64,000 bases of DNA from Brachionus manjavacas (Eukaryota; Rotifera; Eurotatoria; Ploima; Brachionidae): contig JAHQIY010000005.1 in the NCBI GenBank assembly GCA_019054805.1, positions 124,001-188,000 of the forward strand, written 5' to 3'. The notes below the pieces were generated by a model. That model did not search any database and was not told the origin of the DNA. It worked only from the letters and a program-made list of their open reading frames with translations. The first letter of the stretch is position 1, and each line of letters starts with the position of its first letter. The translations under genes were made by a program, and so were the position numbers. Shown here piece by piece: positions 7,756 to 40,442 of the stretch.

Positions 7756-7760
7756 CTAAT
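7756..7760. repeat. Left 5-bp target-site duplication of the Gypsy array
   Basis: CTAAT directly precedes the TG of the first LTR, and CTAAT at 40438-40442 directly follows the CA of the last LTR. No CTAAT flanks any internal LTR. Five bp is typical for Ty3/Gypsy integrases. Confidence 0.85.
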
Positions 7761-8029
7761 TGTTGTATTTGGTTAGTGGCTTAGGGTTTAAGCTAAGATT
7801 ATCCAATATTAAAATAAGAGCGTGGTTGACTATATGTTAAAAAAAATATAAAAAGTGCTTTATTCCAGAGTTGACACACTCAAATTTATATATAAAAGAA
7901 ATTGTACATATGTAAAAAAACATTGAATAATATTGATAAGAAGTGTAAGATTAGTCACATGATTAAATAATTGAACACATAATATAAAAATACTTAGATT
8001 AAGACATAGATTAAGATTAAGACATCACA
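7761..8029 (-). repeat. LTR1 (3' LTR of copy 1), 269 bp
   Basis: It begins TGTTGTATTTGG and ends AAGACATCACA on the plus strand, i.e. TGTGATGTCTT...AATACAACA in element orientation, with canonical TG..CA tips. In element orientation it holds TATATATAAA followed about 30 bp later by AATAAA. It is the outermost LTR on the left and carries the array's left CTAAT duplication. Confidence 0.95.
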
Positions 8030-11000
8030 TCCTCGGTTGGCTTTAATTTTGGTTCATCGTAGGACTTAGCTTTGTGTGATTGGATGTCAAATATTATTGG
8101 TCTCTGATGTGAGCGTTTAGGATAGCGATTGTTTGGTAGTTCAGTTGATGAGTCATTGACGAGATTATTGTGGTCAAAAGACACCAGAGCGTTCTCAGTT
8201 ATTGCAGCAGGGAGTACAGCTTGGTCATGCTCATCTGAATCAGAACTGGTCTCATATTGTGTGATCTCAGGGTCAAACTGTGTATGATGTTGTTTAGCTA
8301 GAGGGCCTGCTCTATCATTAGGTATATTTGGAGATGCTGGTACTGGAACTTGTGTTAGATTTTCAATGGTTGGAATTTGTATATGAGCCCTATTGAGTGT
8401 CAGAGAATGGTAATAAACCAGATCGTTAAGTTGAACATTATTTGCAGAGTTTGATAGAGGCCTTACAGTTTCAGGGATTCTCTTGAAATGTGAGATATTG
8501 CGAGTGATTTCATGGTTACTTGCATTTCGAGCTGTAATCATCGTGCCGTTTTTTGATATTACCCTATATGGATTCGGATTGAAGATTGAGTCATGTTTTG
8601 TTGCTTGTTTCTGTTTGACCAGTACCAAATTGTCAAACTTTACAGCTTTGTTCGACTGGACATTAGTTCCACTGATCTTTACCATTGTTCTTTTATGGTT
8701 CTCTTCAGCCTTTTCGTTTTTTAACTCACATGTTTTTTGTTTTTGAACGCTTGGTAGACGACTCATGTTTACTTGATACTTGAACATTAATTGGACTGGT
8801 GGGACTTGCGTGGTGCTTTGTGGACAAGCTAGATAATTTCTAAGAAAACTGTTAAGCTCTTGATCCCATGGATTATTTTCTATCTTTGCAGCTCTAACCA
8901 CTTTGTTCACATTCTTCATAAATCTCTCTACACAGCCATTAGCCTGTGGCCAATAAGGTGTGATCTTTTTATGGAAAAATCCAAGATGTTTTGCAAATTC
9001 GCTGAATTTGTGACCATTGAATGGAGGACCATTGTCTGACTGTACTGTGTTTGGTATGCCAAGAATATTAAAGATTTTAGTTAGAATGGGTATTACTATA
9101 TTATACCCTGTCGAACTGGATTTTTCTATGACGACAAATCTCGAATACAAACAAATTATGATTAAAAGGTAGATACCACTGATAGGACCATAAAAATCAA
9201 TTGCGACTGTATGCCATGGTTCCGGTGGGATCTCAGACGGGATCATTTCCGAGTTTTTTCTTTCTGGCTCGATCGCTAAACACGAAATGCAGTTTTTAAT
9301 GTAAATTTCTACTTTTTGACCAAGGTTAGGAAACCAAACTGTTTCCCGTAGAAGTGCTTTGGTTTTGGCCATTCCAATGTGACCTTCGTGTGCCATGGAT
9401 ATTGCTTGGTTTTGTAAACTATCTGGTATGGCTATTTGAAAACCTTTAAGGACTAACCCATTTGTGGAAATACTAAGCTGGTCTTTAACATTCTGGTAAG
9501 CTTTCACATTATGATCGATCAAATATTGTTGGTTATTAACCATTTTGATTACATTTTGCAAGCTTTGATCAGATTTAGTGTGTTGAGCGATCTGCTGAGT
9601 AGTAATGGCACCTAATTTCAGACTTGACTCAACAAAGTAGATAAATTCATCAGCTGGATTATACTTTGGCGGAGCGTCGATTGGGTTACGCGAAATATAG
9701 TCAGCAATGTTATATTTACCTGGTTTATGTTCAATTTTGAAATTATACTGGCTTATGCGTAGATTCCATCGTTGGATTCTTGCTGGCGGATTTGACTTTG
9801 GGTTTCGGAATATAAGTTCAACAGCTCTATTATCCGTAACCATTTTGAACGGTCGGCCAAATATATATAAGTGAAGTTTTTCGCACGACCATACCAAACT
9901 AAGAGCTTCTTTTTCTATATGTGCATAACGCCTTTCAGAGTCGCTGAGAAGACGACTTCCAAAAAGAATAATGCGAATTTCTTTAGGTTGTTTTGGATTT
10001 GATTGTGAGAGGACAACACCAAGACCTATCGGGCTTGCATCAGCAGTAACAATCGTGTCCCAAGTCTTGTCAAAATAAGCCATTGCTGTGGTGGTTAAGG
10101 CTTCTTTGAGATGTTTTAGCGACTTGTCATGTGTTTCATTCCAGTGCCATCTAGTGGAAGATTTGGTTAAATTCCATAATGGCTCAGAAATGGTTGCGTA
10201 TTCAGGAATGAAACGCGAAACGTAAGTTGTAAGTCCAAGAAAGCTTCTTACCTCACTGGCGTTTTTTGGAGGGTGAGCCTCACGTATAGCTTTAACCTTT
10301 GAGTAATCTGGTTTAACTCCATTACCAGAGAAAACCATTCCGAAAAATTTTATTTCAGGTACATCTATAACAACCTTGCTCATGTTTGCAGTTGCGCCTA
10401 AATCGTTGAGTCTTTTGAACACCTTGTTTTTAGCCAAATCGTGGTCAACTTTGTTTTTTCCATAGATCAAGATGTCATCACTGACGTTTTTAGTGCCTCT
10501 AATGTCAGCTAATATTTGTTGGATAGTATTTTGGAAAATTTCTGCTGCGCAGTTTATTCCAAAATTAAGTCTCTTGTATTGAAATAAGCCAACATGGGTG
10601 CTGAAAGTTGTAATGAATCTTGATTCCGGATGCAGCTCTAGTTGGTGATAGGCTGCGTTGAGGTCTATCTTGGACAAATGTTTTGCACCATTCAAGTCAA
10701 TTAGCATTTCATCCAGGGTTGGGGTAACATGACGCTCACGCTGAATAGCTTGATTTGGTAGCCTTGCATCGGTGCATATTCTGATCTTATCAGGTTGATT
10801 TGGCTTTGGGACAATAACAATTGGTGACACCCATGGAGTCGGACCTTTGATTGGTTCAATTATGTCAGTATCAAGCATGTTCTGGATTTCCTTTTCAACG
10901 GCATCTCTTAAATGGAATGGTACTCGACGATGTGGTTGTTGCACTGGTTTTACACTGTGATCAATGTGTAACTTAATTTGGATGCCATTAATTTTTCCAA

Positions 11001-12270
11001 CTTTATTTGAAAAGAGGTTTGGATACAACCTAAATTCTTCACTTACGCTACATGTAATTGAAACTATTTTCAGTGCTTCTAGTGTCTCTAATCCAAGAAT
11101 ACAACCTGAGTTTCCAAGACTGATAGCAAACTGAGTTTCTACTGAGTTGTTTTTGTGTTTAACATGAGTACTGAATGTGCCTAGCATTTGTAATGCTTGT
11201 GTTGAGCCATATGCATATACTCTTTTTGTGCTTGGTGCGATATTCACAAGCTTAAAATCAAGACTCTCAAATGTACTTTGGTCGATCACATTGATTGTGG
11301 TACCAGTGTCAATGAGAAATCTTGCATTTCCATTCAGCATTTGAATATCAACATATTTACGTCTTGATGATTGATGGTCGATTGAGAAAACATTTTCAAT
11401 GTCATCCTCAGTCGTTTCATTTAACTGGTTTATTTGATTTGGATATTGTGGTCTTGAGGTGTCATTGTTGCTTTGGCTTGATAACTGTTTGGTTTTTGCG
11501 CGACAAACTGTGGCAAAGTGGTTTCTTTTTCCACAGCTATTGCATGTCTTGTCTTTTGCAGGACATTGGCGATTCTTGTGGGGATACTCATAGCCGCATA
11601 GACCACATTTTTGTTCTTGCATACGATCGTTTTGGTGAGGTTTTGAGTTGTTAAACCTCTTCGTTGGTCTATTAGATCTTGAATCAACTTTGTTTATTTG
11701 GTCTGATGGTTCAGCAAGAGGTTTTATTGATTCCAATGCTCTCCCAAAACGTAGTGCGTCTTTGAGGGTGAGATTTTCTGCAAGAATAAGCTGTGTCTTG
11801 AGACTATTTGAGCTAGTATTTTCCATTATTTGAGACAGTATTTCTTCATCATGGTTTTGGAAATCACAGCCAGATGCAGATTCTCGTAAACGACTCACAA
11901 ATTTGTCGATTGACTCATCGTGATACTGTTTTATCTGTCTAAACTGAGAGATTCTTAGTCGTTTATTTCCAGTTGGTTGGAAGTATGTGCTAAGTTTGTC
12001 GATAATCTGTTGAAAAGTGTCAGTGTCTGATTTTAAATTGGCATAAACATCATATGTTCTTGGTCCAATGCAATTGAGTAGCCTAGCTTTTATTTGACGC
12101 AATCTTTTTATGTATTCAGGCGCTGCTAATTCATTTGCATTAATTGCCGGTAATGGCTCAAGATCAAGTGTGACCAAAAGGTTGTTAAAACGATCGACCC
12201 AGTTCTTCCATCTAAAACTAACGTTAGGGGTGTGCAGATCAGCATCAAATGTGTTTATCGTTTCATTCAT
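8017..12270 (-). CDS. Gag-Pol polyprotein of Ty3/Gypsy retrotransposon, copy 1
   Basis: A single fused 1417-aa ORF. Gag spans about 1-215, followed by two CCHC knuckles (C222-C225-H231-C236 and C243-C246-H251-C256). The aspartic protease has DTG at 321-323. In the reverse transcriptase (about 440-660), D536 lies in SKIDLNAAYHQ and the YxDD box reads VSDD (596-599). RNase H has D744, E788 and D813. The integrase has an HHCC finger (H961, H964, C994, C997) and a DD35E core at D1025, D1079 and E1115. No chromodomain or envelope gene is seen. The order PR-RT-RH-IN makes it Ty3/Gypsy; the SDD variant occurs in some animal lineages (possibly Mag-like, unverified). The last residues V-M-S and the stop lie inside the 3' LTR. 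All catalytic residues are present, so it looks competent. Confidence 0.95.
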   Translation of the reverse strand: MNETINTFDADLHTPNVSFRWKNWVDRFNNLLVTLDLEPLPAINANELAAPEYIKRLRQIKARLLNCIGPRTYDVYANLKSDTDTFQQIIDKLSTYFQPTGNKRLRISQFRQIKQYHDESIDKFVSRLRESASGCDFQNHDEEILSQIMENTSSNSLKTQLILAENLTLKDALRFGRALESIKPLAEPSDQINKVDSRSNRPTKRFNNSKPHQNDRMQEQKCGLCGYEYPHKNRQCPAKDKTCNSCGKRNHFATVCRAKTKQLSSQSNNDTSRPQYPNQINQLNETTEDDIENVFSIDHQSSRRKYVDIQMLNGNARFLIDTGTTINVIDQSTFESLDFKLVNIAPSTKRVYAYGSTQALQMLGTFSTHVKHKNNSVETQFAISLGNSGCILGLETLEALKIVSITCSVSEEFRLYPNLFSNKVGKINGIQIKLHIDHSVKPVQQPHRRVPFHLRDAVEKEIQNMLDTDIIEPIKGPTPWVSPIVIVPKPNQPDKIRICTDARLPNQAIQRERHVTPTLDEMLIDLNGAKHLSKIDLNAAYHQLELHPESRFITTFSTHVGLFQYKRLNFGINCAAEIFQNTIQQILADIRGTKNVSDDILIYGKNKVDHDLAKNKVFKRLNDLGATANMSKVVIDVPEIKFFGMVFSGNGVKPDYSKVKAIREAHPPKNASEVRSFLGLTTYVSRFIPEYATISEPLWNLTKSSTRWHWNETHDKSLKHLKEALTTTAMAYFDKTWDTIVTADASPIGLGVVLSQSNPKQPKEIRIILFGSRLLSDSERRYAHIEKEALSLVWSCEKLHLYIFGRPFKMVTDNRAVELIFRNPKSNPPARIQRWNLRISQYNFKIEHKPGKYNIADYISRNPIDAPPKYNPADEFIYFVESSLKLGAITTQQIAQHTKSDQSLQNVIKMVNNQQYLIDHNVKAYQNVKDQLSISTNGLVLKGFQIAIPDSLQNQAISMAHEGHIGMAKTKALLRETVWFPNLGQKVEIYIKNCISCLAIEPERKNSEMIPSEIPPEPWHTVAIDFYGPISGIYLLIIICLYSRFVVIEKSSSTGYNIVIPILTKIFNILGIPNTVQSDNGPPFNGHKFSEFAKHLGFFHKKITPYWPQANGCVERFMKNVNKVVRAAKIENNPWDQELNSFLRNYLACPQSTTQVPPVQLMFKYQVNMSRLPSVQKQKTCELKNEKAEENHKRTMVKISGTNVQSNKAVKFDNLVLVKQKQATKHDSIFNPNPYRVISKNGTMITARNASNHEITRNISHFKRIPETVRPLSNSANNVQLNDLVYYHSLTLNRAHIQIPTIENLTQVPVPASPNIPNDRAGPLAKQHHTQFDPEITQYETSSDSDEHDQAVLPAAITENALVSFDHNNLVNDSSTELPNNRYPKRSHQRPIIFDIQSHKAKSYDEPKLKPTEDVMS

Positions 12271-12376
12271 CTTGGCTTAAATTATGATTGGTTTGGTAAA
12301 TGGTAAAATGAATCGATTATGATTCGGTGTGACACTGATTAAATCGGATTAAATTGGATTAGGTTTTATTCGTTTT

Positions 12377-12388
12377 TCCTCGTCGCCA
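12377..12388 (-). other. Primer-binding site, tRNA-Ser(GCU) type
   Basis: In element orientation, 2 nt after the 5' LTR, the sequence is TGGCGACGAGGA. It is complementary to the 3' end TCCTCGTCG-CCA that I recall for animal tRNA-Ser(GCU). The match covers 12 nt and then breaks. Equivalent sites lie at 17007-17018, 21637-21648, 26266-26277, 30896-30907, 35526-35537 and 40156-40167. This site primes minus-strand cDNA synthesis. Confidence 0.7.
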
Positions 12389-12390
12389 GA

Positions 12391-12659
12391 TGTTGTATTT
12401 GGTTAGTGGCTTAGGGTTTAAGCTAAGATTATCCAATATTAAAATAAGAGCGTGGTTGACTATATGTTAAAAAAAATATAAAAAGTGCTTTATTCCAGAG
12501 TTGACACACTCAAATTTATATATAAAAGAAATTGTACATATGTAAAAAAACATTGAATAATATTGATAAGAAGTGTAAGATTAGTCACATGATTAAATAA
12601 TTGAACACATAATATAAAAATACTTAGATTAAGACATAGATTAAGATTAAGACATCACA
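12391..12659 (-). repeat. LTR2, shared between copies 1 and 2, 269 bp
   Basis: It serves both as the 5' LTR of copy 1 and the 3' LTR of copy 2. By eye it is the same sequence as LTR1. No host sequence or target duplication separates it from either internal region. Confidence 0.95.
12489..12527 (-). promoter_or_regulatory. LTR core promoter and poly(A) signal
   Basis: In element orientation, TATATATAAA (12515-12527) is followed by AATAAA (12489-12494). This is the U3-TATA then R-region poly(A) layout of LTR retrotransposons. The same pair recurs at the same offset in all eight LTRs, for example 7885-7897 and 7859-7864 in LTR1. Transcription start is inferred to lie between them or slightly downstream. 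Confidence 0.55.
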
Positions 12660-15600
12660 TCCTCGGTTGGCTTTAATTTTGGTTCATCGTAGGACTTAGC
12701 TTTGTGTGATTGGATGTCAAATATTATTGGTCTCTGATGTGAGCGTTTAGGATAGCGATTGTTTGGTAGTTCAGTTGATGAGTCATTGACGAGATTATTG
12801 TGGTCAAAAGACACCAGAGCGTTCTCAGTTATTGCAGCAGGGAGTACAGCTTGGTCATGCTCATCTGAATCAGAACTGGTCTCATATTGTGTGATCTCAG
12901 GGTCAAACTGTGTATGATGTTGTTTAGCTAGAGGGCCTGCTCTATCATTAGGTATATTTGGAGATGCTGGTACTGGAACTTGTGTTAGATTTTCAATGGT
13001 TGGAATTTGTATATGAGCCCTATTGAGTGTCAGAGAATGGTAATAAACCAGATCGTTAAGTTGAACATTATTTGCAGAGTTTGATAGAGGCCTTACAGTT
13101 TCAGGGATTCTCTTGAAATGTGAGATATTGCGAGTGATTTCATGGTTACTTGCATTTCGAGCTGTAATCATCGTGCCGTTTTTTGATATTACCCTATATG
13201 GATTCGGATTGAAGATTGAGTCATGTTTTGTTGCTTGTTTCTGTTTGACCAGTACCAAATTGTCAAACTTTACAGCTTTGTTCGACTGGACATTAGTTCC
13301 ACTGATCTTTACCATTGTTCTTTTATGGTTCTCTTCAGCCTTTTCGTTTTTTAACTCACATGTTTTTTGTTTTTGAACGCTTGGTAGACGACTCATGTTT
13401 ACTTGATACTTGAACATTAATTGGACTGGTGGGACTTGCGTGGTGCTTTGTGGACAAGCTAGATAATTTCTAAGAAAACTGTTAAGCTCTTGATCCCATG
13501 GATTATTTTCTATCTTTGCAGCTCTAACCACTTTGTTCACATTCTTCATAAATCTCTCTACACAGCCATTAGCCTGTGGCCAATAAGGTGTGATCTTTTT
13601 ATGGAAAAATCCAAGATGTTTTGCAAATTCGCTGAATTTGTGACCATTGAATGGAGGACCATTGTCTGACTGTACTGTGTTTGGTATGCCAAGAATATTA
13701 AAGATTTTAGTTAGAATGGGTATTACTATATTATACCCTGTCGAACTGGATTTTTCTATGACGACAAATCTCGAATACAAACAAATTATGATTAAAAGGT
13801 AGATACCACTGATAGGACCATAAAAATCAATTGCGACTGTATGCCATGGTTCCGGTGGGATCTCAGACGGGATCATTTCCGAGTTTTTTCTTTCTGGCTC
13901 GATCGCTAAACACGAAATGCAGTTTTTAATGTAAATTTCTACTTTTTGACCAAGGTTAGGAAACCAAACTGTTTCCCGTAGAAGTGCTTTGGTTTTGGCC
14001 ATTCCAATGTGACCTTCGTGTGCCATGGATATTGCTTGGTTTTGTAAACTATCTGGTATGGCTATTTGAAAACCTTTAAGGACTAACCCATTTGTGGAAA
14101 TACTAAGCTGGTCTTTAACATTCTGGTAAGCTTTCACATTATGATCGATCAAATATTGTTGGTTATTAACCATTTTGATTACATTTTGCAAGCTTTGATC
14201 AGATTTAGTGTGTTGAGCGATCTGCTGAGTAGTAATGGCACCTAATTTCAGACTTGACTCAACAAAGTAGATAAATTCATCAGCTGGATTATACTTTGGC
14301 GGAGCGTCGATTGGGTTACGCGAAATATAGTCAGCAATGTTATATTTACCTGGTTTATGTTCAATTTTGAAATTATACTGGCTTATGCGTAGATTCCATC
14401 GTTGGATTCTTGCTGGCGGATTTGACTTTGGGTTTCGGAATATAAGTTCAACAGCTCTATTATCCGTAACCATTTTGAACGGTCGGCCAAATATATATAA
14501 GTGAAGTTTTTCGCACGACCATACCAAACTAAGAGCTTCTTTTTCTATATGTGCATAACGCCTTTCAGAGTCGCTGAGAAGACGACTTCCAAAAAGAATA
14601 ATGCGAATTTCTTTAGGTTGTTTTGGATTTGATTGTGAGAGGACAACACCAAGACCTATCGGGCTTGCATCAGCAGTAACAATCGTGTCCCAAGTCTTGT
14701 CAAAATAAGCCATTGCTGTGGTGGTTAAGGCTTCTTTGAGATGTTTTAGCGACTTGTCATGTGTTTCATTCCAGTGCCATCTAGTGGAAGATTTGGTTAA
14801 ATTCCATAATGGCTCAGAAATGGTTGCGTATTCAGGAATGAAACGCGAAACGTAAGTTGTAAGTCCAAGAAAGCTTCTTACCTCACTGGCGTTTTTTGGA
14901 GGGTGAGCCTCACGTATAGCTTTAACCTTTGAGTAATCTGGTTTAACTCCATTACCAGAGAAAACCATTCCGAAAAATTTTATTTCAGGTACATCTATAA
15001 CAACCTTGCTCATGTTTGCAGTTGCGCCTAAATCGTTGAGTCTTTTGAACACCTTGTTTTTAGCCAAATCGTGGTCAACTTTGTTTTTTCCATAGATCAA
15101 GATGTCATCACTGACGTTTTTAGTGCCTCTAATGTCAGCTAATATTTGTTGGATAGTATTTTGGAAAATTTCTGCTGCGCAGTTTATTCCAAAATTAAGT
15201 CTCTTGTATTGAAATAAGCCAACATGGGTGCTGAAAGTTGTAATGAATCTTGATTCCGGATGCAGCTCTAGTTGGTGATAGGCTGCGTTGAGGTCTATCT
15301 TGGACAAATGTTTTGCACCATTCAAGTCAATTAGCATTTCATCCAGGGTTGGGGTAACATGACGCTCACGCTGAATAGCTTGATTTGGTAGCCTTGCATC
15401 GGTGCATATTCTGATCTTATCAGGTTGATTTGGCTTTGGGACAATAACAATTGGTGACACCCATGGAGTCGGACCTTTGATTGGTTCAATTATGTCAGTA
15501 TCAAGCATGTTCTGGATTTCCTTTTCAACGGCATCTCTTAAATGGAATGGTACTCGACGATGTGGTTGTTGCACTGGTTTTACACTGTGATCAATGTGTA

Positions 15601-16900
15601 ACTTAATTTGGATGCCATTAATTTTTCCAACTTTATTTGAAAAGAGGTTTGGATACAACCTAAATTCTTCACTTACGCTACATGTAATTGAAACTATTTT
15701 CAGTGCTTCTAGTGTCTCTAATCCAAGAATACAACCTGAGTTTCCAAGACTGATAGCAAACTGAGTTTCTACTGAGTTGTTTTTGTGTTTAACATGAGTA
15801 CTGAATGTGCCTAGCATTTGTAATGCTTGTGTTGAGCCATATGCATATACTCTTTTTGTGCTTGGTGCGATATTCACAAGCTTAAAATCAAGACTCTCAA
15901 ATGTACTTTGGTCGATCACATTGATTGTGGTACCAGTGTCAATGAGAAATCTTGCATTTCCATTCAGCATTTGAATATCAACATATTTACGTCTTGATGA
16001 TTGATGGTCGATTGAGAAAACATTTTCAATGTCATCCTCAGTCGTTTCATTTAACTGGTTTATTTGATTTGGATATTGTGGTCTTGAGGTGTCATTGTTG
16101 CTTTGGCTTGATAACTGTTTGGTTTTTGCGCGACAAACTGTGGCAAAGTGGTTTCTTTTTCCACAGCTATTGCATGTCTTGTCTTTTGCAGGACATTGGC
16201 GATTCTTGTGGGGATACTCATAGCCGCATAGACCACATTTTTGTTCTTGCATACGATCGTTTTGGTGAGGTTTTGAGTTGTTAAACCTCTTCGTTGGTCT
16301 ATTAGATCTTGAATCAACTTTGTTTATTTGGTCTGATGGTTCAGCAAGAGGTTTTATTGATTCCAATGCTCTCCCAAAACGTAGTGCGTCTTTGAGGGTG
16401 AGATTTTCTGCAAGAATAAGCTGTGTCTTGAGACTATTTGAGCTAGTATTTTCCATTATTTGAGACAGTATTTCTTCATCATGGTTTTGGAAATCACAGC
16501 CAGATGCAGATTCTCGTAAACGACTCACAAATTTGTCGATTGACTCATCGTGATACTGTTTTATCTGTCTAAACTGAGAGATTCTTAGTCGTTTATTTCC
16601 AGTTGGTTGGAAGTATGTGCTAAGTTTGTCGATAATCTGTTGAAAAGTGTCAGTGTCTGATTTTAAATTGGCATAAACATCATATGTTCTTGGTCCAATG
16701 CAATTGAGTAGCCTAGCTTTTATTTGACGCAATCTTTTTATGTATTCAGGCGCTGCTAATTCATTTGCATTAATTGCCGGTAATGGCTCAAGATCAAGTG
16801 TGACCAAAAGGTTGTTAAAACGATCGACCCAGTTCTTCCATCTAAAACTAACGTTAGGGGTGTGCAGATCAGCATCAAATGTGTTTATCGTTTCATTCAT
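12647..16900 (-). CDS. Gag-Pol polyprotein, copy 2
   Basis: Same 1417 residues as copy 1, with no difference in the translation. Its 5' LTR is LTR3 and its 3' LTR is LTR2. The 120-nt leader between LTR and ATG is also the same. The start MNETINTF is the first ATG after the LTR. Confidence 0.95.
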   Translation of the reverse strand: MNETINTFDADLHTPNVSFRWKNWVDRFNNLLVTLDLEPLPAINANELAAPEYIKRLRQIKARLLNCIGPRTYDVYANLKSDTDTFQQIIDKLSTYFQPTGNKRLRISQFRQIKQYHDESIDKFVSRLRESASGCDFQNHDEEILSQIMENTSSNSLKTQLILAENLTLKDALRFGRALESIKPLAEPSDQINKVDSRSNRPTKRFNNSKPHQNDRMQEQKCGLCGYEYPHKNRQCPAKDKTCNSCGKRNHFATVCRAKTKQLSSQSNNDTSRPQYPNQINQLNETTEDDIENVFSIDHQSSRRKYVDIQMLNGNARFLIDTGTTINVIDQSTFESLDFKLVNIAPSTKRVYAYGSTQALQMLGTFSTHVKHKNNSVETQFAISLGNSGCILGLETLEALKIVSITCSVSEEFRLYPNLFSNKVGKINGIQIKLHIDHSVKPVQQPHRRVPFHLRDAVEKEIQNMLDTDIIEPIKGPTPWVSPIVIVPKPNQPDKIRICTDARLPNQAIQRERHVTPTLDEMLIDLNGAKHLSKIDLNAAYHQLELHPESRFITTFSTHVGLFQYKRLNFGINCAAEIFQNTIQQILADIRGTKNVSDDILIYGKNKVDHDLAKNKVFKRLNDLGATANMSKVVIDVPEIKFFGMVFSGNGVKPDYSKVKAIREAHPPKNASEVRSFLGLTTYVSRFIPEYATISEPLWNLTKSSTRWHWNETHDKSLKHLKEALTTTAMAYFDKTWDTIVTADASPIGLGVVLSQSNPKQPKEIRIILFGSRLLSDSERRYAHIEKEALSLVWSCEKLHLYIFGRPFKMVTDNRAVELIFRNPKSNPPARIQRWNLRISQYNFKIEHKPGKYNIADYISRNPIDAPPKYNPADEFIYFVESSLKLGAITTQQIAQHTKSDQSLQNVIKMVNNQQYLIDHNVKAYQNVKDQLSISTNGLVLKGFQIAIPDSLQNQAISMAHEGHIGMAKTKALLRETVWFPNLGQKVEIYIKNCISCLAIEPERKNSEMIPSEIPPEPWHTVAIDFYGPISGIYLLIIICLYSRFVVIEKSSSTGYNIVIPILTKIFNILGIPNTVQSDNGPPFNGHKFSEFAKHLGFFHKKITPYWPQANGCVERFMKNVNKVVRAAKIENNPWDQELNSFLRNYLACPQSTTQVPPVQLMFKYQVNMSRLPSVQKQKTCELKNEKAEENHKRTMVKISGTNVQSNKAVKFDNLVLVKQKQATKHDSIFNPNPYRVISKNGTMITARNASNHEITRNISHFKRIPETVRPLSNSANNVQLNDLVYYHSLTLNRAHIQIPTIENLTQVPVPASPNIPNDRAGPLAKQHHTQFDPEITQYETSSDSDEHDQAVLPAAITENALVSFDHNNLVNDSSTELPNNRYPKRSHQRPIIFDIQSHKAKSYDEPKLKPTEDVMS

Positions 16901-17020
16901 CTTGGCTTAAATTATGATTGGTTTGGTAAATGGTAAAATGAATCGATTATGATTCGGTGTGACACTGATTAAATCGGATTAAATTGGATTAGGTTTTATT
17001 CGTTTTTCCTCGTCGCCAGA

Positions 17021-17289
17021 TGTTGTATTTGGTTAGTGGCTTAGGGTTTAAGCTAAGATTATCCAATATTAAAATAAGAGCGTGGTTGACTATATGTTAA
17101 AAAAAATATAAAAAGTGCTTTATTCCAGAGTTGACACACTCAAATTTATATATAAAAGAAATTGTACATATGTAAAAAAACATTGAATAATATTGATAAG
17201 AAGTGTAAGATTAGTCACATGATTAAATAATTGAACACATAATATAAAAATACTTAGATTAAGACATAGATTAAGATTAAGACATCACA
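17021..17289 (-). repeat. LTR3, shared between copies 2 and 3, 269 bp
   Basis: It has the 8-A form of the homopolymer (GTT followed by eight A). It abuts the two internal regions directly. Confidence 0.95.
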
Positions 17290-21530: not shown

Positions 21531-21650
21531 CTTGGCTTAAATTATGATTGGTTTGGTAAATGGTAAAATGAATCGATTATGATTCGGTGTGACACTGATT
21601 AAATCGGATTAAATTGGATTAGGTTTTATTCGTTTTTCCTCGTCGCCAGA

Positions 21651-21918
21651 TGTTGTATTTGGTTAGTGGCTTAGGGTTTAAGCTAAGATTATCCAATATT
21701 AAAATAAGAGCGTGGTTGACTATATGTTAAAAAAATATAAAAAGTGCTTTATTCCAGAGTTGACACACTCAAATTTATATATAAAAGAAATTGTACATAT
21801 GTAAAAAAACATTGAATAATATTGATAAGAAGTGTAAGATTAGTCACATGATTAAATAATTGAACACATAATATAAAAATACTTAGATTAAGACATAGAT
21901 TAAGATTAAGACATCACA
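21651..21918 (-). repeat. LTR4, shared between copies 3 and 4, 268 bp
   Basis: Seven instead of eight A in the run near 21727-21735. It is the only internal LTR with this state; LTR8 at the right edge shares it. This explains the single 4629-bp period in the array. Confidence 0.95.
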
Positions 21919-26159: not shown

Positions 26160-26279
26160 CTTGGCTTAAATTATGATTGGTTTGGTAAATGGTAAAATGA
26201 ATCGATTATGATTCGGTGTGACACTGATTAAATCGGATTAAATTGGATTAGGTTTTATTCGTTTTTCCTCGTCGCCAGA

Positions 26280-26548
26280 TGTTGTATTTGGTTAGTGGCT
26301 TAGGGTTTAAGCTAAGATTATCCAATATTAAAATAAGAGCGTGGTTGACTATATGTTAAAAAAAATATAAAAAGTGCTTTATTCCAGAGTTGACACACTC
26401 AAATTTATATATAAAAGAAATTGTACATATGTAAAAAAACATTGAATAATATTGATAAGAAGTGTAAGATTAGTCACATGATTAAATAATTGAACACATA
26501 ATATAAAAATACTTAGATTAAGACATAGATTAAGATTAAGACATCACA
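26280..26548 (-). repeat. LTR5, shared between copies 4 and 5, 269 bp
   Basis: 8-A form; otherwise same as LTR1. Directly abutting internal regions on both sides. Confidence 0.95.
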
Positions 26549-30789: not shown

Positions 30790-30909
30790 CTTGGCTTAAA
30801 TTATGATTGGTTTGGTAAATGGTAAAATGAATCGATTATGATTCGGTGTGACACTGATTAAATCGGATTAAATTGGATTAGGTTTTATTCGTTTTTCCTC
30901 GTCGCCAGA

Positions 30910-31178
30910 TGTTGTATTTGGTTAGTGGCTTAGGGTTTAAGCTAAGATTATCCAATATTAAAATAAGAGCGTGGTTGACTATATGTTAAAAAAAATATAA
31001 AAAGTGCTTTATTCCAGAGTTGACACACTCAAATTTATATATAAAAGAAATTGTACATATGTAAAAAAACATTGAATAATATTGATAAGAAGTGTAAGAT
31101 TAGTCACATGATTAAATAATTGAACACATAATATAAAAATACTTAGATTAAGACATAGATTAAGATTAAGACATCACA
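30910..31178 (-). repeat. LTR6, shared between copies 5 and 6, 269 bp
   Basis: 8-A form; same TG..CA tips and TATA/AATAAA pair. Confidence 0.95.
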
Positions 31179-34100
31179 TCCTCGGTTGGCTTTAATTTTG
31201 GTTCATCGTAGGACTTAGCTTTGTGTGATTGGATGTCAAATATTATTGGTCTCTGATGTGAGCGTTTAGGATAGCGATTGTTTGGTAGTTCAGTTGATGA
31301 GTCATTGACGAGATTATTGTGGTCAAAAGACACCAGAGCGTTCTCAGTTATTGCAGCAGGGAGTACAGCTTGGTCATGCTCATCTGAATCAGAACTGGTC
31401 TCATATTGTGTGATCTCAGGGTCAAACTGTGTATGATGTTGTTTAGCTAGAGGGCCTGCTCTATCATTAGGTATATTTGGAGATGCTGGTACTGGAACTT
31501 GTGTTAGATTTTCAATGGTTGGAATTTGTATATGAGCCCTATTGAGTGTCAGAGAATGGTAATAAACCAGATCGTTAAGTTGAACATTATTTGCAGAGTT
31601 TGATAGAGGCCTTACAGTTTCAGGGATTCTCTTGAAATGTGAGATATTGCGAGTGATTTCATGGTTACTTGCATTTCGAGCTGTAATCATCGTGCCGTTT
31701 TTTGATATTACCCTATATGGATTCGGATTGAAGATTGAGTCATGTTTTGTTGCTTGTTTCTGTTTGACCAGTACCAAATTGTCAAACTTTACAGCTTTGT
31801 TCGACTGGACATTAGTTCCACTGATCTTTACCATTGTTCTTTTATGGTTCTCTTCAGCCTTTTCGTTTTTTAACTCACATGTTTTTTGTTTTTGAACGCT
31901 TGGTAGACGACTCATGTTTACTTGATACTTGAACATTAATTGGACTGGTGGGACTTGCGTGGTGCTTTGTGGACAAGCTAGATAATTTCTAAGAAAACTG
32001 TTAAGCTCTTGATCCCATGGATTATTTTCTATCTTTGCAGCTCTAACCACTTTGTTCACATTCTTCATAAATCTCTCTACACAGCCATTAGCCTGTGGCC
32101 AATAAGGTGTGATCTTTTTATGGAAAAATCCAAGATGTTTTGCAAATTCGCTGAATTTGTGACCATTGAATGGAGGACCATTGTCTGACTGTACTGTGTT
32201 TGGTATGCCAAGAATATTAAAGATTTTAGTTAGAATGGGTATTACTATATTATACCCTGTCGAACTGGATTTTTCTATGACGACAAATCTCGAATACAAA
32301 CAAATTATGATTAAAAGGTAGATACCACTGATAGGACCATAAAAATCAATTGCGACTGTATGCCATGGTTCCGGTGGGATCTCAGACGGGATCATTTCCG
32401 AGTTTTTTCTTTCTGGCTCGATCGCTAAACACGAAATGCAGTTTTTAATGTAAATTTCTACTTTTTGACCAAGGTTAGGAAACCAAACTGTTTCCCGTAG
32501 AAGTGCTTTGGTTTTGGCCATTCCAATGTGACCTTCGTGTGCCATGGATATTGCTTGGTTTTGTAAACTATCTGGTATGGCTATTTGAAAACCTTTAAGG
32601 ACTAACCCATTTGTGGAAATACTAAGCTGGTCTTTAACATTCTGGTAAGCTTTCACATTATGATCGATCAAATATTGTTGGTTATTAACCATTTTGATTA
32701 CATTTTGCAAGCTTTGATCAGATTTAGTGTGTTGAGCGATCTGCTGAGTAGTAATGGCACCTAATTTCAGACTTGACTCAACAAAGTAGATAAATTCATC
32801 AGCTGGATTATACTTTGGCGGAGCGTCGATTGGGTTACGCGAAATATAGTCAGCAATGTTATATTTACCTGGTTTATGTTCAATTTTGAAATTATACTGG
32901 CTTATGCGTAGATTCCATCGTTGGATTCTTGCTGGCGGATTTGACTTTGGGTTTCGGAATATAAGTTCAACAGCTCTATTATCCGTAACCATTTTGAACG
33001 GTCGGCCAAATATATATAAGTGAAGTTTTTCGCACGACCATACCAAACTAAGAGCTTCTTTTTCTATATGTGCATAACGCCTTTCAGAGTCGCTGAGAAG
33101 ACGACTTCCAAAAAGAATAATGCGAATTTCTTTAGGTTGTTTTGGATTTGATTGTGAGAGGACAACACCAAGACCTATCGGGCTTGCATCAGCAGTAACA
33201 ATCGTGTCCCAAGTCTTGTCAAAATAAGCCATTGCTGTGGTGGTTAAGGCTTCTTTGAGATGTTTTAGCGACTTGTCATGTGTTTCATTCCAGTGCCATC
33301 TAGTGGAAGATTTGGTTAAATTCCATAATGGCTCAGAAATGGTTGCGTATTCAGGAATGAAACGCGAAACGTAAGTTGTAAGTCCAAGAAAGCTTCTTAC
33401 CTCACTGGCGTTTTTTGGAGGGTGAGCCTCACGTATAGCTTTAACCTTTGAGTAATCTGGTTTAACTCCATTACCAGAGAAAACCATTCCGAAAAATTTT
33501 ATTTCAGGTACATCTATAACAACCTTGCTCATGTTTGCAGTTGCGCCTAAATCGTTGAGTCTTTTGAACACCTTGTTTTTAGCCAAATCGTGGTCAACTT
33601 TGTTTTTTCCATAGATCAAGATGTCATCACTGACGTTTTTAGTGCCTCTAATGTCAGCTAATATTTGTTGGATAGTATTTTGGAAAATTTCTGCTGCGCA
33701 GTTTATTCCAAAATTAAGTCTCTTGTATTGAAATAAGCCAACATGGGTGCTGAAAGTTGTAATGAATCTTGATTCCGGATGCAGCTCTAGTTGGTGATAG
33801 GCTGCGTTGAGGTCTATCTTGGACAAATGTTTTGCACCATTCAAGTCAATTAGCATTTCATCCAGGGTTGGGGTAACATGACGCTCACGCTGAATAGCTT
33901 GATTTGGTAGCCTTGCATCGGTGCATATTCTGATCTTATCAGGTTGATTTGGCTTTGGGACAATAACAATTGGTGACACCCATGGAGTCGGACCTTTGAT
34001 TGGTTCAATTATGTCAGTATCAAGCATGTTCTGGATTTCCTTTTCAACGGCATCTCTTAAATGGAATGGTACTCGACGATGTGGTTGTTGCACTGGTTTT

Positions 34101-35419
34101 ACACTGTGATCAATGTGTAACTTAATTTGGATGCCATTAATTTTTCCAACTTTATTTGAAAAGAGGTTTGGATACAACCTAAATTCTTCACTTACGCTAC
34201 ATGTAATTGAAACTATTTTCAGTGCTTCTAGTGTCTCTAATCCAAGAATACAACCTGAGTTTCCAAGACTGATAGCAAACTGAGTTTCTACTGAGTTGTT
34301 TTTGTGTTTAACATGAGTACTGAATGTGCCTAGCATTTGTAATGCTTGTGTTGAGCCATATGCATATACTCTTTTTGTGCTTGGTGCGATATTCACAAGC
34401 TTAAAATCAAGACTCTCAAATGTACTTTGGTCGATCACATTGATTGTGGTACCAGTGTCAATGAGAAATCTTGCATTTCCATTCAGCATTTGAATATCAA
34501 CATATTTACGTCTTGATGATTGATGGTCGATTGAGAAAACATTTTCAATGTCATCCTCAGTCGTTTCATTTAACTGGTTTATTTGATTTGGATATTGTGG
34601 TCTTGAGGTGTCATTGTTGCTTTGGCTTGATAACTGTTTGGTTTTTGCGCGACAAACTGTGGCAAAGTGGTTTCTTTTTCCACAGCTATTGCATGTCTTG
34701 TCTTTTGCAGGACATTGGCGATTCTTGTGGGGATACTCATAGCCGCATAGACCACATTTTTGTTCTTGCATACGATCGTTTTGGTGAGGTTTTGAGTTGT
34801 TAAACCTCTTCGTTGGTCTATTAGATCTTGAATCAACTTTGTTTATTTGGTCTGATGGTTCAGCAAGAGGTTTTATTGATTCCAATGCTCTCCCAAAACG
34901 TAGTGCGTCTTTGAGGGTGAGATTTTCTGCAAGAATAAGCTGTGTCTTGAGACTATTTGAGCTAGTATTTTCCATTATTTGAGACAGTATTTCTTCATCA
35001 TGGTTTTGGAAATCACAGCCAGATGCAGATTCTCGTAAACGACTCACAAATTTGTCGATTGACTCATCGTGATACTGTTTTATCTGTCTAAACTGAGAGA
35101 TTCTTAGTCGTTTATTTCCAGTTGGTTGGAAGTATGTGCTAAGTTTGTCGATAATCTGTTGAAAAGTGTCAGTGTCTGATTTTAAATTGGCATAAACATC
35201 ATATGTTCTTGGTCCAATGCAATTGAGTAGCCTAGCTTTTATTTGACGCAATCTTTTTATGTATTCAGGCGCTGCTAATTCATTTGCATTAATTGCCGGT
35301 AATGGCTCAAGATCAAGTGTGACCAAAAGGTTGTTAAAACGATCGACCCAGTTCTTCCATCTAAAACTAACGTTAGGGGTGTGCAGATCAGCATCAAATG
35401 TGTTTATCGTTTCATTCAT
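31166..35419 (-). CDS. Gag-Pol polyprotein, copy 6
   Basis: Translation identical to copy 1. 5' LTR is LTR7, 3' LTR is LTR6. Confidence 0.95.
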   Translation of the reverse strand: MNETINTFDADLHTPNVSFRWKNWVDRFNNLLVTLDLEPLPAINANELAAPEYIKRLRQIKARLLNCIGPRTYDVYANLKSDTDTFQQIIDKLSTYFQPTGNKRLRISQFRQIKQYHDESIDKFVSRLRESASGCDFQNHDEEILSQIMENTSSNSLKTQLILAENLTLKDALRFGRALESIKPLAEPSDQINKVDSRSNRPTKRFNNSKPHQNDRMQEQKCGLCGYEYPHKNRQCPAKDKTCNSCGKRNHFATVCRAKTKQLSSQSNNDTSRPQYPNQINQLNETTEDDIENVFSIDHQSSRRKYVDIQMLNGNARFLIDTGTTINVIDQSTFESLDFKLVNIAPSTKRVYAYGSTQALQMLGTFSTHVKHKNNSVETQFAISLGNSGCILGLETLEALKIVSITCSVSEEFRLYPNLFSNKVGKINGIQIKLHIDHSVKPVQQPHRRVPFHLRDAVEKEIQNMLDTDIIEPIKGPTPWVSPIVIVPKPNQPDKIRICTDARLPNQAIQRERHVTPTLDEMLIDLNGAKHLSKIDLNAAYHQLELHPESRFITTFSTHVGLFQYKRLNFGINCAAEIFQNTIQQILADIRGTKNVSDDILIYGKNKVDHDLAKNKVFKRLNDLGATANMSKVVIDVPEIKFFGMVFSGNGVKPDYSKVKAIREAHPPKNASEVRSFLGLTTYVSRFIPEYATISEPLWNLTKSSTRWHWNETHDKSLKHLKEALTTTAMAYFDKTWDTIVTADASPIGLGVVLSQSNPKQPKEIRIILFGSRLLSDSERRYAHIEKEALSLVWSCEKLHLYIFGRPFKMVTDNRAVELIFRNPKSNPPARIQRWNLRISQYNFKIEHKPGKYNIADYISRNPIDAPPKYNPADEFIYFVESSLKLGAITTQQIAQHTKSDQSLQNVIKMVNNQQYLIDHNVKAYQNVKDQLSISTNGLVLKGFQIAIPDSLQNQAISMAHEGHIGMAKTKALLRETVWFPNLGQKVEIYIKNCISCLAIEPERKNSEMIPSEIPPEPWHTVAIDFYGPISGIYLLIIICLYSRFVVIEKSSSTGYNIVIPILTKIFNILGIPNTVQSDNGPPFNGHKFSEFAKHLGFFHKKITPYWPQANGCVERFMKNVNKVVRAAKIENNPWDQELNSFLRNYLACPQSTTQVPPVQLMFKYQVNMSRLPSVQKQKTCELKNEKAEENHKRTMVKISGTNVQSNKAVKFDNLVLVKQKQATKHDSIFNPNPYRVISKNGTMITARNASNHEITRNISHFKRIPETVRPLSNSANNVQLNDLVYYHSLTLNRAHIQIPTIENLTQVPVPASPNIPNDRAGPLAKQHHTQFDPEITQYETSSDSDEHDQAVLPAAITENALVSFDHNNLVNDSSTELPNNRYPKRSHQRPIIFDIQSHKAKSYDEPKLKPTEDVMS

Positions 35420-35539
35420 CTTGGCTTAAATTATGATTGGTTTGGTAAATGGTAAAATGAATCGATTATGATTCGGTGTGACACTGATTAAATCGGATTA
35501 AATTGGATTAGGTTTTATTCGTTTTTCCTCGTCGCCAGA

Positions 35540-35808
35540 TGTTGTATTTGGTTAGTGGCTTAGGGTTTAAGCTAAGATTATCCAATATTAAAATAAGAGC
35601 GTGGTTGACTATATGTTAAAAAAAATATAAAAAGTGCTTTATTCCAGAGTTGACACACTCAAATTTATATATAAAAGAAATTGTACATATGTAAAAAAAC
35701 ATTGAATAATATTGATAAGAAGTGTAAGATTAGTCACATGATTAAATAATTGAACACATAATATAAAAATACTTAGATTAAGACATAGATTAAGATTAAG
35801 ACATCACA
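35540..35808 (-). repeat. LTR7, shared between copies 6 and 7, 269 bp
   Basis: 8-A form; no host DNA at either junction. Confidence 0.95.
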
Positions 35809-38800
35809 TCCTCGGTTGGCTTTAATTTTGGTTCATCGTAGGACTTAGCTTTGTGTGATTGGATGTCAAATATTATTGGTCTCTGATGTGAGCGTTTAGG
35901 ATAGCGATTGTTTGGTAGTTCAGTTGATGAGTCATTGACGAGATTATTGTGGTCAAAAGACACCAGAGCGTTCTCAGTTATTGCAGCAGGGAGTACAGCT
36001 TGGTCATGCTCATCTGAATCAGAACTGGTCTCATATTGTGTGATCTCAGGGTCAAACTGTGTATGATGTTGTTTAGCTAGAGGGCCTGCTCTATCATTAG
36101 GTATATTTGGAGATGCTGGTACTGGAACTTGTGTTAGATTTTCAATGGTTGGAATTTGTATATGAGCCCTATTGAGTGTCAGAGAATGGTAATAAACCAG
36201 ATCGTTAAGTTGAACATTATTTGCAGAGTTTGATAGAGGCCTTACAGTTTCAGGGATTCTCTTGAAATGTGAGATATTGCGAGTGATTTCATGGTTACTT
36301 GCATTTCGAGCTGTAATCATCGTGCCGTTTTTTGATATTACCCTATATGGATTCGGATTGAAGATTGAGTCATGTTTTGTTGCTTGTTTCTGTTTGACCA
36401 GTACCAAATTGTCAAACTTTACAGCTTTGTTCGACTGGACATTAGTTCCACTGATCTTTACCATTGTTCTTTTATGGTTCTCTTCAGCCTTTTCGTTTTT
36501 TAACTCACATGTTTTTTGTTTTTGAACGCTTGGTAGACGACTCATGTTTACTTGATACTTGAACATTAATTGGACTGGTGGGACTTGCGTGGTGCTTTGT
36601 GGACAAGCTAGATAATTTCTAAGAAAACTGTTAAGCTCTTGATCCCATGGATTATTTTCTATCTTTGCAGCTCTAACCACTTTGTTCACATTCTTCATAA
36701 ATCTCTCTACACAGCCATTAGCCTGTGGCCAATAAGGTGTGATCTTTTTATGGAAAAATCCAAGATGTTTTGCAAATTCGCTGAATTTGTGACCATTGAA
36801 TGGAGGACCATTGTCTGACTGTACTGTGTTTGGTATGCCAAGAATATTAAAGATTTTAGTTAGAATGGGTATTACTATATTATACCCTGTCGAACTGGAT
36901 TTTTCTATGACGACAAATCTCGAATACAAACAAATTATGATTAAAAGGTAGATACCACTGATAGGACCATAAAAATCAATTGCGACTGTATGCCATGGTT
37001 CCGGTGGGATCTCAGACGGGATCATTTCCGAGTTTTTTCTTTCTGGCTCGATCGCTAAACACGAAATGCAGTTTTTAATGTAAATTTCTACTTTTTGACC
37101 AAGGTTAGGAAACCAAACTGTTTCCCGTAGAAGTGCTTTGGTTTTGGCCATTCCAATGTGACCTTCGTGTGCCATGGATATTGCTTGGTTTTGTAAACTA
37201 TCTGGTATGGCTATTTGAAAACCTTTAAGGACTAACCCATTTGTGGAAATACTAAGCTGGTCTTTAACATTCTGGTAAGCTTTCACATTATGATCGATCA
37301 AATATTGTTGGTTATTAACCATTTTGATTACATTTTGCAAGCTTTGATCAGATTTAGTGTGTTGAGCGATCTGCTGAGTAGTAATGGCACCTAATTTCAG
37401 ACTTGACTCAACAAAGTAGATAAATTCATCAGCTGGATTATACTTTGGCGGAGCGTCGATTGGGTTACGCGAAATATAGTCAGCAATGTTATATTTACCT
37501 GGTTTATGTTCAATTTTGAAATTATACTGGCTTATGCGTAGATTCCATCGTTGGATTCTTGCTGGCGGATTTGACTTTGGGTTTCGGAATATAAGTTCAA
37601 CAGCTCTATTATCCGTAACCATTTTGAACGGTCGGCCAAATATATATAAGTGAAGTTTTTCGCACGACCATACCAAACTAAGAGCTTCTTTTTCTATATG
37701 TGCATAACGCCTTTCAGAGTCGCTGAGAAGACGACTTCCAAAAAGAATAATGCGAATTTCTTTAGGTTGTTTTGGATTTGATTGTGAGAGGACAACACCA
37801 AGACCTATCGGGCTTGCATCAGCAGTAACAATCGTGTCCCAAGTCTTGTCAAAATAAGCCATTGCTGTGGTGGTTAAGGCTTCTTTGAGATGTTTTAGCG
37901 ACTTGTCATGTGTTTCATTCCAGTGCCATCTAGTGGAAGATTTGGTTAAATTCCATAATGGCTCAGAAATGGTTGCGTATTCAGGAATGAAACGCGAAAC
38001 GTAAGTTGTAAGTCCAAGAAAGCTTCTTACCTCACTGGCGTTTTTTGGAGGGTGAGCCTCACGTATAGCTTTAACCTTTGAGTAATCTGGTTTAACTCCA
38101 TTACCAGAGAAAACCATTCCGAAAAATTTTATTTCAGGTACATCTATAACAACCTTGCTCATGTTTGCAGTTGCGCCTAAATCGTTGAGTCTTTTGAACA
38201 CCTTGTTTTTAGCCAAATCGTGGTCAACTTTGTTTTTTCCATAGATCAAGATGTCATCACTGACGTTTTTAGTGCCTCTAATGTCAGCTAATATTTGTTG
38301 GATAGTATTTTGGAAAATTTCTGCTGCGCAGTTTATTCCAAAATTAAGTCTCTTGTATTGAAATAAGCCAACATGGGTGCTGAAAGTTGTAATGAATCTT
38401 GATTCCGGATGCAGCTCTAGTTGGTGATAGGCTGCGTTGAGGTCTATCTTGGACAAATGTTTTGCACCATTCAAGTCAATTAGCATTTCATCCAGGGTTG
38501 GGGTAACATGACGCTCACGCTGAATAGCTTGATTTGGTAGCCTTGCATCGGTGCATATTCTGATCTTATCAGGTTGATTTGGCTTTGGGACAATAACAAT
38601 TGGTGACACCCATGGAGTCGGACCTTTGATTGGTTCAATTATGTCAGTATCAAGCATGTTCTGGATTTCCTTTTCAACGGCATCTCTTAAATGGAATGGT
38701 ACTCGACGATGTGGTTGTTGCACTGGTTTTACACTGTGATCAATGTGTAACTTAATTTGGATGCCATTAATTTTTCCAACTTTATTTGAAAAGAGGTTTG

Positions 38801-40049
38801 GATACAACCTAAATTCTTCACTTACGCTACATGTAATTGAAACTATTTTCAGTGCTTCTAGTGTCTCTAATCCAAGAATACAACCTGAGTTTCCAAGACT
38901 GATAGCAAACTGAGTTTCTACTGAGTTGTTTTTGTGTTTAACATGAGTACTGAATGTGCCTAGCATTTGTAATGCTTGTGTTGAGCCATATGCATATACT
39001 CTTTTTGTGCTTGGTGCGATATTCACAAGCTTAAAATCAAGACTCTCAAATGTACTTTGGTCGATCACATTGATTGTGGTACCAGTGTCAATGAGAAATC
39101 TTGCATTTCCATTCAGCATTTGAATATCAACATATTTACGTCTTGATGATTGATGGTCGATTGAGAAAACATTTTCAATGTCATCCTCAGTCGTTTCATT
39201 TAACTGGTTTATTTGATTTGGATATTGTGGTCTTGAGGTGTCATTGTTGCTTTGGCTTGATAACTGTTTGGTTTTTGCGCGACAAACTGTGGCAAAGTGG
39301 TTTCTTTTTCCACAGCTATTGCATGTCTTGTCTTTTGCAGGACATTGGCGATTCTTGTGGGGATACTCATAGCCGCATAGACCACATTTTTGTTCTTGCA
39401 TACGATCGTTTTGGTGAGGTTTTGAGTTGTTAAACCTCTTCGTTGGTCTATTAGATCTTGAATCAACTTTGTTTATTTGGTCTGATGGTTCAGCAAGAGG
39501 TTTTATTGATTCCAATGCTCTCCCAAAACGTAGTGCGTCTTTGAGGGTGAGATTTTCTGCAAGAATAAGCTGTGTCTTGAGACTATTTGAGCTAGTATTT
39601 TCCATTATTTGAGACAGTATTTCTTCATCATGGTTTTGGAAATCACAGCCAGATGCAGATTCTCGTAAACGACTCACAAATTTGTCGATTGACTCATCGT
39701 GATACTGTTTTATCTGTCTAAACTGAGAGATTCTTAGTCGTTTATTTCCAGTTGGTTGGAAGTATGTGCTAAGTTTGTCGATAATCTGTTGAAAAGTGTC
39801 AGTGTCTGATTTTAAATTGGCATAAACATCATATGTTCTTGGTCCAATGCAATTGAGTAGCCTAGCTTTTATTTGACGCAATCTTTTTATGTATTCAGGC
39901 GCTGCTAATTCATTTGCATTAATTGCCGGTAATGGCTCAAGATCAAGTGTGACCAAAAGGTTGTTAAAACGATCGACCCAGTTCTTCCATCTAAAACTAA
40001 CGTTAGGGGTGTGCAGATCAGCATCAAATGTGTTTATCGTTTCATTCAT
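35796..40049 (-). CDS. Gag-Pol polyprotein, copy 7
   Basis: Translation identical to copy 1. It is the rightmost copy; its 5' LTR (LTR8) borders host DNA and so is the only 5' LTR in the array not also serving as a 3' LTR. Confidence 0.95.
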   Translation of the reverse strand: MNETINTFDADLHTPNVSFRWKNWVDRFNNLLVTLDLEPLPAINANELAAPEYIKRLRQIKARLLNCIGPRTYDVYANLKSDTDTFQQIIDKLSTYFQPTGNKRLRISQFRQIKQYHDESIDKFVSRLRESASGCDFQNHDEEILSQIMENTSSNSLKTQLILAENLTLKDALRFGRALESIKPLAEPSDQINKVDSRSNRPTKRFNNSKPHQNDRMQEQKCGLCGYEYPHKNRQCPAKDKTCNSCGKRNHFATVCRAKTKQLSSQSNNDTSRPQYPNQINQLNETTEDDIENVFSIDHQSSRRKYVDIQMLNGNARFLIDTGTTINVIDQSTFESLDFKLVNIAPSTKRVYAYGSTQALQMLGTFSTHVKHKNNSVETQFAISLGNSGCILGLETLEALKIVSITCSVSEEFRLYPNLFSNKVGKINGIQIKLHIDHSVKPVQQPHRRVPFHLRDAVEKEIQNMLDTDIIEPIKGPTPWVSPIVIVPKPNQPDKIRICTDARLPNQAIQRERHVTPTLDEMLIDLNGAKHLSKIDLNAAYHQLELHPESRFITTFSTHVGLFQYKRLNFGINCAAEIFQNTIQQILADIRGTKNVSDDILIYGKNKVDHDLAKNKVFKRLNDLGATANMSKVVIDVPEIKFFGMVFSGNGVKPDYSKVKAIREAHPPKNASEVRSFLGLTTYVSRFIPEYATISEPLWNLTKSSTRWHWNETHDKSLKHLKEALTTTAMAYFDKTWDTIVTADASPIGLGVVLSQSNPKQPKEIRIILFGSRLLSDSERRYAHIEKEALSLVWSCEKLHLYIFGRPFKMVTDNRAVELIFRNPKSNPPARIQRWNLRISQYNFKIEHKPGKYNIADYISRNPIDAPPKYNPADEFIYFVESSLKLGAITTQQIAQHTKSDQSLQNVIKMVNNQQYLIDHNVKAYQNVKDQLSISTNGLVLKGFQIAIPDSLQNQAISMAHEGHIGMAKTKALLRETVWFPNLGQKVEIYIKNCISCLAIEPERKNSEMIPSEIPPEPWHTVAIDFYGPISGIYLLIIICLYSRFVVIEKSSSTGYNIVIPILTKIFNILGIPNTVQSDNGPPFNGHKFSEFAKHLGFFHKKITPYWPQANGCVERFMKNVNKVVRAAKIENNPWDQELNSFLRNYLACPQSTTQVPPVQLMFKYQVNMSRLPSVQKQKTCELKNEKAEENHKRTMVKISGTNVQSNKAVKFDNLVLVKQKQATKHDSIFNPNPYRVISKNGTMITARNASNHEITRNISHFKRIPETVRPLSNSANNVQLNDLVYYHSLTLNRAHIQIPTIENLTQVPVPASPNIPNDRAGPLAKQHHTQFDPEITQYETSSDSDEHDQAVLPAAITENALVSFDHNNLVNDSSTELPNNRYPKRSHQRPIIFDIQSHKAKSYDEPKLKPTEDVMS

Positions 40050-40169
40050 CTTGGCTTAAATTATGATTGGTTTGGTAAATGGTAAAATGAATCGATTATG
40101 ATTCGGTGTGACACTGATTAAATCGGATTAAATTGGATTAGGTTTTATTCGTTTTTCCTCGTCGCCAGA

Positions 40170-40437
40170 TGTTGTATTTGGTTAGTGGCTTAGGGTTTAA
40201 GCTAAGATTATCCAATATTAAAATAAGAGCGTGGTTGACTATATGTTAAAAAAATATAAAAAGTGCTTTATTCCAGAGTTGACACACTCAAATTTATATA
40301 TAAAAGAAATTGTACATATGTAAAAAAACATTGAATAATATTGATAAGAAGTGTAAGATTAGTCACATGATTAAATAATTGAACACATAATATAAAAATA
40401 CTTAGATTAAGACATAGATTAAGATTAAGACATCACA
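40170..40437 (-). repeat. LTR8 (outer 5' LTR of copy 7), 268 bp
   Basis: 7-A form, like LTR4. It ends CATCACA at 40437, followed by the right CTAAT duplication and host sequence. Confidence 0.95.
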
Positions 40438-40442
40438 CTAAT
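40438..40442. repeat. Right 5-bp target-site duplication of the Gypsy array
   Basis: CTAAT matches 7756-7760 exactly. It defines the empty site as ...CAATT-CTAAT-CAATTTAAAATC.... Confidence 0.85.

Follow-up and report, generated by a model that had tools for sequence, protein, structure and literature searches.

The window analysed here is a 64-kb stretch of contig C5 (C5:124001-188000), and coordinates given without a contig name refer to it. Between positions 7761 and 40437, eight LTRs of 268 or 269 bp alternate with seven internal regions, with an LTR at both ends of the array and all units on the minus strand. From left to right, a CTAAT motif (7756-7760), the left copy of a 5-bp target duplication, is followed by LTR1 (7761-8029, 269 bp), the 3' LTR of the outermost unit, and by internal region 1 (8030-12390, 4,361 bp), whose gag-pol frame (8017-12276, 1,419 aa) reaches a few bases into LTR1. 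LTR2 (12391-12659) leads into internal region 2 (12660-17020, frame 12647-16906), LTR3 (17021-17289) into region 3 (17290-21650), LTR4 (21651-21918, 268 bp) into region 4 (21919-26279), LTR5 (26280-26548) into region 5 (26549-30909), LTR6 (30910-31178) into region 6 (31179-35539) and LTR7 (35540-35808) into region 7 (35809-40169), LTR2 to LTR7 each being shared between units. The array closes with LTR8 (40170-40437, 268 bp), the 5' LTR of the outermost unit, and the right copy of CTAAT (40438-40442). The original prediction of eight LTRs and seven identical 4.36-kb internal regions held to the base, as all seven internal regions are 4,361 bp long and letter-identical, forming a single distinct sequence. 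A 4.63-kb period without substitution across 32.7 kb is no chance match.

Comparison of the window with itself gave no mismatches between units, only one-base gaps, all of which were confined to a single A run in the LTR. The run is eight bases long (A8) in LTRs 1, 2, 3, 5, 6 and 7 and seven (A7) in LTRs 4 and 8, so that the segment 7761-21918 (LTR1 to LTR4) is repeated at 26280-40437 (LTR5 to LTR8), exact over 14,158 bp with the A7 marks included. This four-unit period was absent from the original prediction and was added by the follow-up. CTAAT adjoins the outer ends of LTR1 and LTR8 only, as had been claimed; no target duplication was found at the inner junctions, where the LTRs are bordered by internal sequence (CCAGA / TCCTC). 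Independent or nested insertions are ruled out by these inner junctions, which carry neither a target duplication nor any other flank, and a segmental duplication together with flanking DNA is ruled out as the repeat stops at the LTR ends. A query made from the two joined flanks revealed neither an empty nor an allelic site in the rest of the assembly. It returned four matches, comprising the two known flanks in full, 81% identity over 71 query bases on C3 and 73% over ~100 query bases on C5; the last crosses the junction by a few bases, and we read both weak matches as probable AT-rich repeat.

Each of the seven units carries one open gag-pol frame of 1,419 codons, which bears out the claim of an intact open-reading frame in every copy. 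The frame matches, in order, the Pfam domains Retrotrans_gag, RVT_1, RNase H, Integrase_H2C2 and rve, with the integrase after RNase H; the scan was run in three pieces, and the N-terminal part of RVT_1 that fell in the gag piece scored below the curated cut-off, the domain being split between pieces. The LTRs have TG...CA ends (TGTTG...TCACA on the plus strand), and two bases from the 5' LTR lies a primer-binding site of 13 nt complementary to the 3' end of tRNA-Ser(GCT) including CCA. The tRNA pattern occurs at 17 places in the genome and its reversed control at none; the anticodon was read by eye, and CCA was assumed to be added later, as is usual. The domain order, the TG...CA ends and the tRNA primer site identify the element as a Ty3/Gypsy retrotransposon. 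Its reverse transcriptase (RT) region had 845 relatives, the best 120 of which were considered; the closest named among those listed is from Brachionus calyciflorus (67% identity), and the matches listed also include K02A2.6-like proteins from molluscs, a jellyfish and a pseudoscorpion. The names of these relatives point to a Mag-like Ty3/Gypsy element, probably of the Mag (K02A2.6-like) group. A tRNA-Ser primer site is typical of Mag, and Mag-like elements likewise encode gag, RT, RNase H and integrase in one gag-pol frame; the array element showed no difference from them among the features tested. The LTR RNA folded no better than its shuffles (z 0.55), and a promoter scan with a bacterial model gave three sites, compared with 3.3 in shuffles, and no terminators.

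The array region has a GC content of 36-39% in 2-kb windows, as against ~21-32% in nearly all flanking windows. Dispersed repeats lie on both sides of it, one at 6500 to ~7160 with at least 66 genome matches (40 of 142 candidates scored), the other at ~41100-41500 with at least 43 (40 of 86 candidates scored), and a tandem repeat of period 222 and 3.8 copies occupies 42963-43784. Towards the left end of the window, a 699-aa open frame (2173-4272, minus strand) matches a MULE transposase, with a SWIM match just under the cut-off. To the right, a 706-aa frame (53725-55845, minus strand) drew six matches, among them proteins of Brachionus plicatilis (79% identity) and B. calyciflorus (51%), which suggests a Brachionus-like monogonont rotifer as the host; a source names the frame C2H2-type, a Pfam match was not obtained here, and the 2-kb window that holds it has 50% GC, compared with 21-32% around it. 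Pieces of reverse transcriptase frames, the longest with an RVT_1 match, lie at 58566-60802. On another contig, RT matches at C30:80510-81658 (minus strand) and C30:149084-150232 (plus strand) have near-equal scores and the same stop counts, perhaps reflecting an inverted duplication. tRNA and Rfam scans of the 64-kb window each returned zero hits.

To place the array in its family, the assembly (114,169,980 bases in 61 contigs) was searched with an LTR probe and a 1,501-base internal probe. The LTR probe found 20 matches, eight in the array and 12 outside it, the latter comprising three on C6 (one just 72% identical), two on C3, two on C1, one on C37 and four pieces on C9. The internal probe found 26, of which nine were full-length: the seven array units, one copy on C6 and one on C1. 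With these probes, no second array of the family was found across the assembly, and the family is a small one, whose other members are one full-length element (C6), one solo LTR (C37) and decayed copies (C1, C3 and C9). The C6 element stands alone, has a TCATG duplication and differs from the array unit by seven internal substitutions; each of its LTRs has one extra 18-bp repeat, and its A run counts eight in the 3' LTR and seven in the 5' LTR. The C1 copy differs from the array unit by 30 substitutions, has one in-frame stop and has one LTR cut at an end, the C3 copy lacks a stretch and carries an AATGA duplication, and the solo LTR on C37 is flanked by ACATG. C6 and the array differ at seven positions, and at five of these C1 carries the C6 residue, so that it is the array units that deviate there, a pattern that would fit one recent founder of all seven units.

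Gypsy-like families other than that of the C5 array also form shared-LTR tandems in this assembly. Candidates were picked by eye as equal-scoring neighbours on one strand among integrase zinc-binding matches (150 of 416 candidates scored), which amounts to no systematic survey and yields no rate. Five clusters were noted this way, on C1, C2, C4, C8 and C13, and sequence was compared for all except the C2 cluster, a candidate tandem of three equal-scoring matches on one strand (C2:9232619-9253504). A further tandem came to light through the internal probe at C29:227998-237420, where a related family occurs twice, 4,680 bases apart, with three LTRs of ~315 bp and two internal regions, one lacking ~260 bp; its outer flanks share ATTAT only if TA, with which the outermost LTR ends, is taken as an altered CA, and otherwise show no duplication. 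At C4:6572850-6585356, two internal regions, which differ at 23 alignment columns (nine substitutions and 14 gap columns), lie between three LTRs that measure 210-212 bp and have TG...CA ends; the flanks carry ATAC within low-complexity sequence. At C8:990233-1006268, four 229-bp repeats, one of them cut to 149 bp, alternate with three internal regions, one without ~0.4 kb, and a clean target duplication was not found at the ends. The other two clusters are less clear. A ~1.48-kb repeat present three times at C1:1400901-1418029, with two regions between, surrounds integrase zinc-binding matches, and neither TG...CA ends nor a duplication at its ends was found, so that this is possibly something other than an LTR tandem; at C13 (~375747-401500), several stretches recur at a spacing of 6.3-7.3 kb around such matches and could be a tandem or another kind of duplication. 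This leaves two tandems with a probable target duplication (C29 and C4) and one probable tandem (C8). In the C29, C4 and C1 cases the middle repeat agrees with recombination, and also with private changes. Tandem arrays of this size with intact frames in every copy had been called unusual, and the structure appears less exceptional here given these other examples, although seven uniform, intact units remain notable beside unit counts of two or three elsewhere, where units are distinguishable at C29, C4 and C8.

The closest parallels come from plants. Passages of PMC11899658 describe shared-LTR tandems with a single target duplication in rice and candidates in Arabidopsis, almond and cotton, mostly Gypsy, with the same alternation of LTRs and internal regions, an outer target duplication and high identity between units. 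The C5 array shows two of the features used to recognise the plant tandems, LTR-bounded alternation and a target duplication at the outer ends with none inside, and it differs in its animal host, in its seven units as against two in the two rice loci detailed in those passages, and in that all seven frames are open. The same source cites Drosophila double insertions, the kangaroo KERV megasatellite, in which tandem LTR-internal units keep the provirus structure, and long plant arrays of Cassandra TRIMs that share LTRs; however, KERV is an endogenous retrovirus at centromeres, whereas the present array is a short Gypsy array in one contig, and Cassandra TRIMs are small defective elements, whereas each C5 unit has a full gag-pol frame. 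Passages of a study on B. asplanchnoidis (PMC8447722) mention satellites and LTR elements and, within those passages, no LTR tandem, and those of PMC12368964 and PMC10085805 concern other kinds of tandem. A narrow combined query of the open-access literature, judged partly by title, found no rotifer shared-LTR tandem, which is weak evidence of absence, and no closer parallel than PMC11899658. We class the C5 array as a long and very young example of an already known shared-LTR tandem structure.

As to its origin, we give roughly even odds to one integration on C5 followed by expansion through out-of-register recombination between LTRs or units. A Mag-like Ty3/Gypsy element would have integrated once, making the CTAAT duplication; out-of-register homologous recombination between its directly repeated LTRs would have enlarged the locus, and later exchanges would have taken place between whole units, on sister chromatids or homologues. 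Each exchange would add LTR-internal units with no new target duplication and keep the reading frames whole. That only one target site was involved follows from the lone 5-bp CTAAT duplication flanking the array, and the zero substitutions among units mean either that expansion was very recent or that ongoing exchange keeps the units uniform. The single integration event put forward in the original prediction is supported by the one outer duplication, the identical units and their seven common differences from C6, and expansion by recombination is backed by that duplication, the seamless inner junctions, the lack of substitutions and the 14,158-bp block repeat. Solo LTRs arise as the reciprocal kind of product when two LTRs recombine, and the one on C37, together with the single copies on C6 and C3 with duplications of their own, would count in the same direction. 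The units of the other tandems differ by deletions and substitutions, as might be expected from ongoing duplication and decay at a locus, and one rice locus has tandem, single and solo-LTR haplotypes (PMC11899658). At least one step may have copied a block of several units, as LTR1 to LTR4 repeat exactly as LTR5 to LTR8, yet this argument hinges on a one-base run and is weak, the 5' and 3' LTRs of the single C6 copy also differing in that run. The run also furnishes an objection to recombination: five of the six inner LTRs are A8, though, with the run placed in the first third of the LTR, repeated exchange between an A8 left LTR and an A7 right LTR should by a rough estimate yield mostly A7. 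This objection holds only if A7 predates the expansion and is real, and the run may reflect slippage or sequencing noise.

The single outer duplication, identical units and intact frames fit equally well with one-step entry of a multimer, be it concatemeric cDNA, a multimeric or rolling-circle copy or LTR read-through cDNA, inserted by integrase with one duplication, and transcripts of one-LTR circles are discussed as a possible source of tandems in passages of PMC11899658. We consider such an entry unlikely, as the array, at 32.7 kb, would be far above the usual length of cDNA, and the two A7 LTRs four units apart demand a four-unit template or chance; sequence alone nevertheless does not decide between recombination and multimer integration, the two routes that the original prediction had likewise left open. 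Equally seamless junctions without a new duplication would arise if family cDNA had recombined successively, independently of integrase, into the LTRs of a resident element, as reported for yeast, whose integrase-independent tandems are cited in PMC11899658. That route seems unlikely as well: the seven internal regions are identical, yet the other two copies matching the internal probe over its full length differ by 7 and 30 substitutions, so the cDNA would have had to come from the array itself or from a copy outside the assembly. A different and plausible prospect, if one we hold at under even odds, is that the tandem is real and its length is not, the assembler having set the number of units, which is compatible with any of these mechanisms. 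The number is doubtful, since 32.7 kb of identical 4.63-kb units is more than common accurate reads cover; one homopolymer alone separates the units, and passing twice through a loop in the assembly graph could produce the exact 14,158-bp repeat of one half in the other. Against this, the assembly contains other tandems whose units can be distinguished, and the A7-bearing LTR4 precedes an internal region, which would exclude a plain join of overlapping contig ends. An assembly artefact had been offered as an option from the outset, and in its pure form, with a single element at the site and a tandem made entirely by the assembler, we find it very improbable. The near-perfect identity of the units would suit it, but long reads readily cross an element of 4.9 kb, other shared-LTR tandems here have differing units, and the family's C6 element came out of the assembly as a single copy. 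Seven is the unit count as assembled.

The locus carries a warning, namely that the way tandems are assembled affects how many young LTR elements are counted. If the seven units are real, they would capture a very young transition from LTR retrotransposon to satellite-like array, with every unit still undecayed, in a group of animals with little-catalogued mobile elements, and, taken with the other tandems in the same assembly, recombination and multimer integration become testable against each other by comparing clones. Tentatively, and with the balance of probability against it, shared-LTR tandems may be a regular product of several Gypsy families here, and the C5 array a newborn megasatellite growing by block exchange. 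Were this so, its seven intact elements would act as a multi-copy source of the element at this locus and also mark the start of a satellite derived from a retroelement.
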